Assembly: GCA_943788195.1 (NCBI GenBank)
Contig: CALSPH010000001.1
Span: 619,673-683,672, forward strand
DNA: 64,000 nucleotides
Direction: 5' to 3'
Source of the DNA: an uncultured Bacteroidia bacterium
Lineage (GTDB): Bacteria > Bacteroidota > Bacteroidia > NS11-12g > UBA955
A program made the translations under genes and the position numbers. This document shows positions 7,149-10,892 of the stretch, one piece after another. The notes under the pieces are model-generated. The model did no database searches. It was given only the letters and a program-made list of their open reading frames with translations, and was not told the DNA's origin. Every line of letters starts with the position of its first letter. Positions within the stretch are counted from its first letter, which is position 1.

Positions 7149-7682
7149 ATGAGAGGAATAGTTGTAATAAGTTTAATATTTTTAATGGCGTTTACTACGC
7201 CTGTAGAAAAATCAGTGCCAGCTGTGGAAGCTGCACCTAAACGCAAAGAGTTGAGAATTAATGATACGATTACTAAAATCATTATTAACAAAACACAGCG
7301 AAAATTATACGCATTTTATGGGGACACATTTAAGTGGTACTATTGCGCATTCGGGGCAAATCCGGTAGGGTACAAACAGCGTGAAGGGGACAATAGAACA
7401 CCCGAAGGGAACTATTACATTTCTTTAAAGAACCCCCAAAGTCGTGGTTATCGATCTTTGAAAATTTCCTATCCCAATGCGCAAGATAGAGCCAAAGCTA
7501 GAAAAATGGGTGTGAGTCCAGGTGGAGATATTTTTATTCATGGGCTATGGTGGCCAGATCAAAATCCAGAAACGCATTGGATGTATGATTGGACTTGGGG
7601 CTGTGTTGCATTGAATAATGAACAAATAGCAGAACTTTTTAAGTGGACCTTTGTTAAGACTCCAGTAACTATTAGCCCTTAA
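7149..7682 (+). CDS. L,D-transpeptidase (YkuD) family protein
   Basis: 177 aa. N-terminal hydrophobic signal (IVVISLIFLMAFTTP), then a YkuD catalytic domain from ~40 to the end. Active-site pattern: His131 in IFIHGLWW and Cys152 in TWGCVAL, spaced as in the family (HGx...[ST]xGC). Earlier family elements TPEGNYYIS and INKTQRKLYAF are present. Likely a periplasmic enzyme that makes or edits L,D peptidoglycan cross-links or anchors proteins to the wall. The start is marked by an unusually good Shine-Dalgarno (AAGGAGG, ~7 nt upstream), rare in this window. The stop overlaps the next ATG by one base. Confidence 0.87.
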   Translation: MRGIVVISLIFLMAFTTPVEKSVPAVEAAPKRKELRINDTITKIIINKTQRKLYAFYGDTFKWYYCAFGANPVGYKQREGDNRTPEGNYYISLKNPQSRGYRSLKISYPNAQDRAKARKMGVSPGGDIFIHGLWWPDQNPETHWMYDWTWGCVALNNEQIAELFKWTFVKTPVTISP

Positions 7683-8180: not shown

Positions 8181-8546
8181 ATGCTCCCGAAAAAAGCAAC
8201 GCTTCTACTTCTTTCAATTTGTGTTTGGATGTTAAGCTTGGCAACTACGCCAGTTAAGCCAGTAAAACTTCGGTTAATTGTTTTTCAGGGGTCCGATTCG
8301 TTGTTTATTCGCTATATAACGGAAAATGATATTACGATTGAACGCATAGACTTTCCGCAAAGAATTAAACTCGATTCTGTCACACAGGAACGCAATGAGG
8401 GCATGGCTGATAAATTTGAATTCCAAGGTCAGTTTCCAACTGTGATATTGGCCAATTCGGCAGACAGTGCGTTGCTGAAGATGAACCCCAAACGGAATCA
8501 AACCGTGAAGGAATTCATAACAATCCTTAAAGAGAAAATACCCTAA
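8181..8546 (+). CDS. thioredoxin-fold protein that has lost the CxxC motif
   Basis: 121 aa with an N-terminal signal-like segment. The first gene of the Bacteroidota ApbE-DUF4266-DUF3570 operons is normally a thioredoxin-family protein with the flow FSGSDWCxxC ... ADFPR ... NExLAxKY ... GxFPTvvL. Here the same landmarks are visible (IVFQGSD, RIDFPQRIKLDS, RNEGMADKFEFQGQFPTVIL), but the stretch between GSD and the second strand is about 20 residues too short and contains no cysteine. Mature protein has no Cys at all. Likely a non-redox remnant or scaffold. It is followed 5 bp later by apbE. Family assignment rests on motif order and operon position. Confidence 0.7.
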   Translation: MLPKKATLLLLSICVWMLSLATTPVKPVKLRLIVFQGSDSLFIRYITENDITIERIDFPQRIKLDSVTQERNEGMADKFEFQGQFPTVILANSADSALLKMNPKRNQTVKEFITILKEKIP

Positions 8547-8551
8547 TAAAC

Positions 8552-9481
8552 ATGAAATGTTTTAAAAAGGAGTGCATCCGAATGGGTTCAGTTTTTGAGT
8601 TAGGTGTTGTTACTATTGACGAGAATTGGGCAACCAAATTAATTGAAATAGGGATAAAGGAAATCGAACGGTTTGAAGATATTTTGTCTGAATTTAGGCC
8701 GGACTCTATGACAAGTAAGATTAATCAGAATGCAGGCGTTGTTCCCACAAAATTGAATACAGAGGTTTTTGAATTGATCAAACGGAGTATACAAATCGCT
8801 CAAATATCCAATGGTGCTTTTGATATTACCGTTGGACCTTTAAAGAAATTGTATCAGTTTAAAAACGCAGACTTCGTTTTTCCAAAATCGAAAAAAATCA
8901 CTCAAGCATTGAATCTTGTGGGTTATGAAAAGGTAAAATTGGATGATTCAAGAGGAGAGATCCAACTTGAAAAACCTCAAATGAGCATAAGTTTTGCGGC
9001 CATTGGCAAAGGGTACGCGGCAGATCAAGTACGAAAAATATGGAGATCACACCAGGTTGAATCGGGTTATATTAATGCGAGTGGAGATTTGTGTGCATTT
9101 GGCAAAAATGCAAAAGGCAAACCATGGACCATTGGTATAGCTAATCCGAATGATCGAAAAAAGAACCTACTGCATTTAGATTTGAGTGATAGAGCCATTG
9201 CTACTTCTGGGGATTATGAGCAGTTTTTTAATTATCAAGGGAAACGCTATTCGCATAGTTTAAATCCAAAAACTGGCTTGCCATTGAGCGGAATCAAAAG
9301 TGTTTCTGTAATTTCGCCTAGTGCTGAATTGTCAGACGGTCTGGCAACAGCGGTTTATACATTGGGTGAGAAGGCAGGCATATCATTTGTGAATAGCCTT
9401 CCTCAAACCCATGCAATAGTCATCAATGAAAATAATGAGGTCCATTTTTCTGAAGATATCAATTATGAAGGCATACGTTAA
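8552..9481 (+). CDS. apbE: FAD:protein FMN transferase
   Basis: 309 aa. ApbE transfers FMN from FAD to a Thr/Ser of target proteins, with Mg2+. Family motifs: RMGSVFEL at the N-terminus, GAFDITVGPL, SFAAIGKGYAADQV, INASGDLCAFG, IATSGDYEQFF with YSHSLNPKTGLPL, and SDGLATAVYTLG near the C-terminus. There is no signal peptide or lipobox, unlike many periplasmic ApbE proteins, so the product as annotated would be cytoplasmic. No obvious FMN acceptor motif (D/S-G-A/S-T-x-x-S/T) was found in the neighbouring proteins, so its target is unknown. Its last 17 bp overlap the DUF4266 gene. Confidence 0.92.
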   Translation: MKCFKKECIRMGSVFELGVVTIDENWATKLIEIGIKEIERFEDILSEFRPDSMTSKINQNAGVVPTKLNTEVFELIKRSIQIAQISNGAFDITVGPLKKLYQFKNADFVFPKSKKITQALNLVGYEKVKLDDSRGEIQLEKPQMSISFAAIGKGYAADQVRKIWRSHQVESGYINASGDLCAFGKNAKGKPWTIGIANPNDRKKNLLHLDLSDRAIATSGDYEQFFNYQGKRYSHSLNPKTGLPLSGIKSVSVISPSAELSDGLATAVYTLGEKAGISFVNSLPQTHAIVINENNEVHFSEDINYEGIR

Positions 9482-9680
9482 GTTGATATGTATCACATGC
9501 GTATTTTTAATGGTCAGTTGCACTAGTTTGAAAATGCATGAGCGCGTTTATGTAAATGACCCAGAAATGCAAATGGGCGATGGCTCAGCAGCTCAATTTG
9601 AAGATTATGTAGAGTCCATACGCGGATCATCTGTCCCAGCCAAAAGCAAAAAAGGCAGTGGAGGGTGCGGATGTAATTAG
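9465..9680 (+). CDS. DUF4266 lipoprotein
   Basis: 71 aa from the ATG at 9465, chosen because it gives a proper lipoprotein signal (KLICITCVFLMVSC, lipobox LMVSC). The longer frame from 9426 would put the signal internally. The mature part carries the DUF4266 pattern ERVYVNDPEMQ and ends in the family's glycine-cysteine tail GGCGCN. Predicted to be anchored to a membrane facing the periplasm; function unknown. The CGC tail could bind a metal or form a disulfide. Overlaps apbE by 17 bp and is 3 bp from the DUF3570 gene, so synthesis is coupled. Confidence 0.85.
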   Translation: MKAYVKLICITCVFLMVSCTSLKMHERVYVNDPEMQMGDGSAAQFEDYVESIRGSSVPAKSKKGSGGCGCN

Positions 9681-9683
9681 TCC

Positions 9684-10892
9684 ATGCGCAGAATACTGAT
9701 TTTGGCTTCTTTGCTGGTGTTCAGTTGTTTTACAAAAAACGCTTTTGGCCAGAAAAAAAACCAAGCGCCACAACCCACTAAACAAGAGATTGAACTCCTC
9801 TATAATCATTACATCCAAGATGGGAATAATTCTGCGGTAACAGGTGGAATTGGCACAGAAAAACTCAATGTGTATGGCCCTTCTGTTCGCATTACTCGTC
9901 AAAAGGGAAAAGGGATTTGGAATTTTAAAGGAGGTACGGATATCATCAGTTCAGCATCAACTGATAATATTGACTCCATTCAATCTTCCGCCTCAGTTCT
10001 AGATGCCAGAACCTATGTAAATGCCAATTATGCGCGATACTTTCCGCAAAAAAAATGGACCATCGATGCAGGTTTTGGAGGCTCAATTGAATCGGATTAT
10101 TTTTCTTATGCCCCAGAAGTTGGAGTAACAAAGGGATCAGCTAATGGATTACGTAATCTTGAAGTTCAATTTAAAACGTATTTTGACGACTTGCGATGGG
10201 GCAGATTGAATCCAGGTTACAATCGTCCGGTTAAACTGATTTATCCTGATGAATTGCGCTACAAAGAATGGACTGATCAGTATAAAAGGCAATCGTATAA
10301 TTTAAATATTGGGGTAACACAGGTGTTAAACAAACGGAATGTGTTGGGCATATTTGCATTGGTTGGTGTGCAAAACGGTTTGCTGTCAACCCCGTTTCAT
10401 CGGGTTTATTTTAATACGGACTCCTTAGCAGTTGAAAAATTACCGAACCAGCGAAACCGGTTCTCATTAAGTATAAAATGGAATTCATTTGTCGGTGGAA
10501 GGTTTATTCTTAAGAATACCGCTTATGCGTACACCGATAACTTTGGTGTGTTGGCTGCTTCTTTACAGCATGAAACGGCTTATAAAATAAATCGAAAGTT
10601 GACTGTCTTAGGGGATCTTAAATTGTATTCCCAGCGTGCTTCAGATTATTTTGCACCTTTTAAAGAACATGAAATCACGGATTTGTATTATACCTCAGAT
10701 TACGACATGTCGCAATTTCAAACGCTTAAATTAGGCGGAGGGTTCAAGTTTAGGCCTTATCTGTACAAGGCGCAACCACTTATTAATCTAATAACACTTC
10801 GCTACCATCATTATCTCCGCTCCAATGGATTACGCAGCCATGCTATTTCATTTGCGATTCAGTTGCCAATTGGCAAAAAGATGAATCCATAA
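9684..10892 (+). CDS. DUF3570 outer-membrane beta-barrel protein
   Basis: 402 aa with signal peptide (LILASLLVFSCFTKNAFG). The mature protein is a run of alternating amphipathic strands typical of an outer-membrane barrel and ends in a strand (HAISFAIQLPIGKKMNP). DUF3570 hallmarks: LYNHYIQDGNNSAVTGGIGTEKL near the start, and the middle VNANYARYFPQKKWTIDAGFG. DUF3570 proteins occur with ApbE, DUF4266 and a thioredoxin-like protein in many Gram-negative genomes, but the role of the system is not known to me. Last gene of the operon; a 7-bp hairpin (10903-10909/10914-10920) without a T tract follows. Confidence 0.87.
   Translation: MRRILILASLLVFSCFTKNAFGQKKNQAPQPTKQEIELLYNHYIQDGNNSAVTGGIGTEKLNVYGPSVRITRQKGKGIWNFKGGTDIISSASTDNIDSIQSSASVLDARTYVNANYARYFPQKKWTIDAGFGGSIESDYFSYAPEVGVTKGSANGLRNLEVQFKTYFDDLRWGRLNPGYNRPVKLIYPDELRYKEWTDQYKRQSYNLNIGVTQVLNKRNVLGIFALVGVQNGLLSTPFHRVYFNTDSLAVEKLPNQRNRFSLSIKWNSFVGGRFILKNTAYAYTDNFGVLAASLQHETAYKINRKLTVLGDLKLYSQRASDYFAPFKEHEITDLYYTSDYDMSQFQTLKLGGGFKFRPYLYKAQPLINLITLRYHHYLRSNGLRSHAISFAIQLPIGKKMNP

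Follow-up and report, generated by a model that had tools for sequence, protein, structure and literature searches.

Organization of the locus

The window, i.e., the whole stretch of 64,000 nucleotides that was analysed, comes from a genome of an uncultured Bacteroidia bacterium with 2.53 Mb on 3 contigs and an estimated completeness of 94.5%. Positions 8181 to 10892 carry four genes in series on the plus strand that encode a thioredoxin-like protein, ApbE, DUF4266, and DUF3570, the four adjacent same-strand families of a flavinylation operon. Open reading frames and Pfam matches bear out the originally proposed order and coordinates of these genes; the thioredoxin-like member was identified through its relatives in other operons and not by Pfam. 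The features are as follows (E-values refer to Pfam):

8181–8546, plus strand: thioredoxin-like protein (DsbH/Thioredoxin_7-type), 121 aa, signal peptide at about residues 1–23, without CxxC
8292–8300, plus strand: deletion junction, codons S38-D39-S40 (TCC GAT TCG), where relatives have 45 additional nt for WCxxC and the N-terminal half of helix 1
8552–9481, plus strand: ApbE (FAD:protein FMN transferase), 309 aa, without signal peptide (E 8.6e-80)
9471–9680, plus strand: DUF4266 small lipoprotein, 69 aa, C-terminal GGCGCN (E 2.8e-10)
9666–9674, plus strand: CXC of DUF4266
9684–10892, plus strand: DUF3570, 402 aa, predicted outer-membrane beta-barrel and ApbE substrate (E 1.9e-22)
9948–9959, plus strand: first predicted flavinylation motif SSAS, DUF3570 residues 89–92, opposite the first [ST]GAS of a Bacteroidota family
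9984–9995, plus strand: second predicted flavinylation motif SSAS, DUF3570 residues 101–104, opposite the second SGAS with a one-column gap

The start of the DUF4266 gene was chosen from its lipoprotein-type signal and placed at 9471 rather than at 9426, where the longest open reading frame begins. Just upstream of the operon lies an L,D-transpeptidase gene (7149–7682; YkuD, E 1.5e-20), then a possible winged-helix open reading frame and a DUF6435 open reading frame.

A known flavin-based electron transfer system

This operon type had been taken to lack an assigned function, a view that we reject because its role is described by Meheust et al. (2021; PMC8238504). There, the gene set is a flavin-based extracytosolic electron transfer system with DsbD as the proposed donor, and DsbD, thioredoxin, DUF4266, and DUF3570 are proposed to form the electron transfer chain. 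Flavinylation of DUF3570 by its cognate ApbE, at two motifs, is reported there for Chlorobium luteolum only, and a conserved CXC terminates DUF4266. The paper counts 285 gene clusters in which DsbD occurs together with flavinylation genes, most often those for DUF3570, a thioredoxin-like protein, and DUF4266, and 316 further clusters of ApbE, DUF3570, thioredoxin, and DUF4266 without a neighbouring DsbD. Compared with this DsbD-associated system and its PF13899 thioredoxin-like protein, the window has the same four clustered families, keeps both SSAS motifs and the CXC of DUF4266, and, like the 316 clusters, has no adjoining DsbD. It differs in that its thioredoxin-like member lacks CxxC and that DsbD (domains DsbD_N, DsbD_TM, and Thioredoxin_7) is encoded about 370 kb away on the same contig. 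Our literature searches for DUF3570, DUF4266, and their Pfam numbers found PMC8238504 only. The flavin system itself is known; what the window adds is that one of its subunits has lost the catalytic motif, a real loss of which this is so far the one case.

The thioredoxin-like protein has lost its active site by an in-frame deletion

Using the 121-aa protein as query, phmmer found operon-adjacent thioredoxins that are encoded beside ApbE in other genomes (E-values down to 5e-17), and alignment with these operon thioredoxins, proposed at the outset as a check, identified it as a true family member. The landmarks F-x-GSD, DFPQR, and G-x-FPT align throughout, so that FQGSD, DFPQR, and GQFPTVIL are indeed retained as had been claimed. 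A single 15-residue gap, preceded by F-x-GSD and followed by DFPQR and G-x-FPT, coincides exactly with WCxxC plus the N-terminal half of the active-site helix and corresponds to 45 nt that are missing in frame at the DNA level. The original prediction was thus right about the loss of the WCxxC helix but put its size too high, at about 20 residues. The CxxC active site is deleted, and the only cysteine of the protein sits within the signal peptide, which leaves the mature chain without any, as predicted. No other start restores the motif, since the open frame totals 127 codons and just six of these lie upstream of the gene. Judging from these features, the 121-aa protein is a relative of the thiol oxidoreductases and not a working member. 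In relatives, the segment that is missing here is often flanked by Ser-Asp on both sides, and the deletion may possibly have arisen because of this by a slip between short repeats.

No Pfam family, Thioredoxin_7 and Thioredoxin_2 included, matches the 121-aa protein at E 0.001, while these two families match 39 and 40 of the 42 sequences in the alignment that includes it. An AlphaFold2 model from the protein and 41 relatives (pLDDT 84.4, pTM 0.60) has the order strand-helix-strand-helix-strand-strand-helix with a first helix of eight residues, and its best solved match is DsbH (2ju5; Foldseek E 8.5e-6; VIA Z 11.2, rmsd 1.8 over 92 residues). The structure prediction, another check proposed initially, therefore shows a thioredoxin fold that is complete apart from a shorter first helix and that is partly imposed by the intact relatives in the alignment. 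Chance resemblance to thioredoxin is ruled out by the phmmer E-values, the aligned landmarks, and the match of the predicted structure. The protein resembles DsbH and Thioredoxin_7-type periplasmic thioredoxins in predicted fold and family landmarks but differs from them by the absent CxxC, the shortened helix 1, and the missing Pfam match. Among the structure matches listed, the b' domain of PDILT (4nwy), which we take to lack CxxC, is likewise a thioredoxin fold without catalytic cysteines, though from an unrelated family and setting.

CxxC is present in all surveyed relatives

A contig scan with the DUF3570 of the window contributed 80 loci, the best 80 of 148 confirmed ones, to which we added four operons from the same order and, from 45 of the 395 genomes of the class, 48 DUF4266 sites, one of them that of the window; 14 duplicate or own-genome loci were excluded from the thioredoxin survey. 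Over all loci, 120 of 120 distinct thioredoxin relatives have CxxC (119 WCxxC and one NCELC, the latter in a second thioredoxin-like open reading frame of L090), a count of thioredoxins found and not of operons, obtained at a threshold of E 1e-10 with a profile built mainly from CxxC proteins that strongly decayed members could escape. As to how often CxxC is lost, a question raised with the original prediction, the window thus stands alone, and because all 120 distinct relatives have the motif, its loss appears to be single within this sample and not family background.

Four operons still had no thioredoxin gene after their flanks were widened: L016 (Taibaiella), L017 and L018 (Edaphocola), and L089 (Saprospiraceae). 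L138 was not counted beside L018, apparently being from the same genome, and L085 ends at a contig end. Five other candidates for this group were rejected: wider flanks (L172, L173, and L175) show a thioredoxin gene near L110, L112, and L132, that of L025 is intact when read stop-to-stop, and that of L052 was overlooked by phmmer and recovered by the profile. Loci that also lack ApbE were not counted as operons (L048, L127/L176, L131/L174, L139/L177, and L140/L178), and the same applies to the DUF3570-only loci L044, L047, L067, and L083 and to L075, which has DUF4266 and DUF3570 at a contig end. No thioredoxin was found within the 1.5-kb flanks of 30 loci from one family of the phylum, perhaps belonging to the Chlorobia (L142–L171). 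In two genomes of the class, we observed DUF4266 genes with an intact CGCN tail (L177 8064–8276 and L178 6942–7166) and no ApbE, DUF3570, or thioredoxin match in the surrounding 16–17 kb.

A FastTree phylogeny of ApbE and DUF3570 from 88 operons places the window operon in a sister relationship (support 0.963) with three Flavobacteriaceae-type operons whose WCxxC is intact, nested in a clade of nine (support 0.999) and on a long branch of its own (0.64). Since it sits within a clade of CxxC-bearing operons, the loss of CxxC is derived. Horizontal transfer of the operon is likely, given that it groups with Flavobacteriaceae-type operons and apart from those of three genomes of the window's own family (L010–L012). 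With the window genome included, DUF4266 occurs in 1 of the 57 nearest genomes, 5 of 108 in the order, 45 of 395 in the class, and 113 of 395 in the phylum.

Faster divergence as a sign of decay was not seen in the thioredoxin-like protein. Outside the gap, its mean residual from the ApbE/DUF3570 expectation is -0.006, within the range of 13 relatives (-0.197 to 0.090), and 16 of 18 conserved columns are retained (in leave-one-out, relatives retain from 13/15 to 15/15). This ordinary divergence, together with the retained columns, suggests either that the deletion is recent or that the remaining chain is still doing something.

The partner proteins keep the CXC and the predicted flavinylation motifs

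ApbE of the window begins 10 residues ahead of MGS in an open frame of 316 codons, has no signal peptide, and departs from its relatives at 1 of 30 strongly conserved columns (I to L). By a crude hydropathy rule, a leader is absent from 92 of 124 distinct ApbE relatives and present in 26, with the remaining 6 cut by contig edges. In this branch, FMN may be attached before DUF3570 is exported. Separately, L014 5607–6569 (G000 C2:62606–63568), where no obvious FMN-binding substrate was found among the listed open reading frames, encodes a second ApbE with a lipoprotein-type leader beside an apparent flavin-dependent oxidoreductase.

The C-terminal CXC of DUF4266 is present in the window (GGCGCN), and all 120 of 120 distinct DUF4266 relatives have a tail ending in CXC and carry [RK]E[GA]. 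The window protein is the sole case in which the Glu of this motif is changed, to Gly, reading RG where all others read RE or KE. As to whether loss of CxxC tracks with changes in DUF4266, a question asked at the outset, there is one case here and no correlation: because the operons without a thioredoxin gene retain RE, the change of this Glu does not track with thioredoxin loss in general.

In DUF3570, both SSAS motifs align with the [ST]GAS pairs of a Bacteroidota family, and the protein departs at 1 of 25 strongly conserved columns (R to K). Two such motifs are found in 119 of 135 distinct relatives; among the 12 listed of the 16 exceptions, 11 keep one motif and have a variant at the other (e.g., SSVS or SSPS), and the remaining one (L137) has TTAS with SSAS.

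Possible alternative sources of thiols

A family thioredoxin with WCxxC is encoded elsewhere in 4 of the 4 genomes with thioredoxin-less operons (E 8.7e-33, 2.5e-32, 6.1e-29, and 1.6e-42); for Taibaiella and E. aurantiacus, its gene is part of another complete operon, the second of the genome. The 94.5% complete window genome yielded no second operon-class thioredoxin that close; the next-best matches are C2:571592 (NCDKC, E 2e-4) and C2:123821 (WCKWC, E 4e-4), both of the Pfam family Thioredoxin_7. If a thiol step is needed, these two proteins or the thioredoxin domain of DsbD would be candidates for it. The original proposal that the system may not need thiol chemistry is therefore not established: one genome of the sample is without CxxC, and it has kept both the CXC and DsbD, while each of the four relatives whose operon lacks the thioredoxin gene has one at another locus.

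Possible explanations for the loss of CxxC

Most probably, a deletion has abolished the function of one subunit while the rest of the flavin system is intact, and thiols are either supplied from another source or not required. That the locus is an ApbE/DUF3570/DUF4266 flavin operon in which a single in-frame deletion of 45 bp deprived the thioredoxin subunit of its thiol chemistry is a statement to which we give about equal credence and doubt. In such an operon, ApbE would attach FMN to both SSAS motifs of the barrel protein DUF3570, as others have shown for a relative, and electrons would pass from DsbD to thioredoxin, perhaps on to the CXC of DUF4266, and to the flavins of DUF3570, as proposed in PMC8238504. 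The thioredoxin step of the window genome would have no cysteines of its own and would either be bypassed or be served in trans by the DsbD thioredoxin domain or proteins such as C2:571592 and C2:123821, and the 121-aa protein would be a loss-of-function remnant or becoming one. In favour of this explanation, family membership and the 15-residue deletion are observed directly, the partners look intact (departures at 1/30 columns in ApbE and 1/25 in DUF3570, with SSAS motifs, CXC, and DsbD in place), and dispensability in cis has a precedent in L016, L017, L018, and L089. What speaks against it is that ordinary divergence with 16 of 18 conserved columns would be unexpected in a long-dead gene, and that the window genome, unlike those four, seems to have no second operon-class thioredoxin.

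An intact frame, a signal peptide, ordinary divergence, and conserved columns that include the cis-Pro loop would also be expected if the protein had lost catalysis and been retained to help dock or assemble DUF4266, DUF3570, or ApbE, with separable relay and scaffold roles. The modelled thioredoxin fold, complete except for its shortened first helix (DsbH Z 11.2), and the likewise altered DUF4266 with its change at an otherwise invariant Glu are consistent with this idea. We nonetheless consider it rather unlikely: a recent deletion accounts for this conservation too, the model alignment of intact relatives partly imposes the fold, and the survey contains no second CxxC-less case that would point to a stable state. 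What remains of the chain has diverged no further than its relatives and is modelled with a thioredoxin fold, which makes a non-catalytic role for it conceivable, if doubtful. An improbable origin of the deletion would be a variant at the level of strain or assembly, i.e., a slip or mis-assembly in a species that normally has WCxxC, for which one could cite that the comparison had one genome of the species and no congener among the relatives, and that Ser-Asp flanking the missing piece in relatives fits a slip. However, exactly 45 nt are missing in frame from an otherwise intact gene on a 1.79-Mb contig, and a loss of 45 nt is not the usual type of sequencing error. Decay or repurposing of the whole operon in this lineage, with the thioredoxin as its first visible loss, is more improbable still. 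The operon is rare in the family, its branch is long (0.64), and the window has the most departures from conserved columns in a clade of 17 operons (6/90 columns in ApbE and 3/19 in DUF4266), but all four frames are open, motifs and CXC are retained, and DUF3570 departs at 2 of 95 columns compared to 8 in L027, 4 in L012, and 3 in L020. A natural operon that misses only the thiols of its thioredoxin offers a ready test of three possibilities for the thiol relay: that it is essential, that it can be replaced in trans, or that it can be separated from a structural role.

Predicted barrel and flavin sites of DUF3570

The AlphaFold2 model of DUF3570 is a barrel (pLDDT 86.4, pTM 0.81) that matches TodX in Foldseek (E 7.6e-10) and BamA as the best VIA match (Z 21.5), with at least 50 VIA matches being barrel proteins judging from their titles. 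DUF3570 is therefore predicted to be an outer-membrane beta-barrel, in line with one half of the initial idea of a cargo or metal-linked outer-membrane system; its other half, cargo or metal, is unsupported. We further speculate, with considerable doubt, that DUF3570 could be a flavin-carrying outer-membrane conduit or surface reductase, with both FMN sites and almost every invariant residue in the outward-facing half of a barrel of 16 strands and electrons crossing by flavins instead of hemes, in which the thioredoxin subunit can lose catalysis yet stay as a structural part. Outward-facing flavins, if true, would make DUF3570 a candidate heme-free electron route across the outer membrane. No source on a DUF3570 barrel or outward flavins was found in the literature searched, which beyond PMC8238504 was judged from titles and the openings of abstracts.

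Outer-membrane barrels generally have both termini in the periplasm. With the termini of the model placed accordingly, every DUF3570 loop longer than 12 residues lies on one side, presumed to be the outside. Of 61 barrel positions that are at least 95% conserved among 42 sequences, 55 fall into the half of the barrel on the long-loop side and 6 into the other, and this half comprises 220 of 364 positions (hypergeometric P 2.6e-8); we assigned the 16 strands manually from the DSSP line, and these counts would change if a strand had been misread. Both flavinylation motifs are located in or at loop 94–106 on the long-loop side, a loop that is modelled with low confidence (pLDDT blocks 53 and 68).
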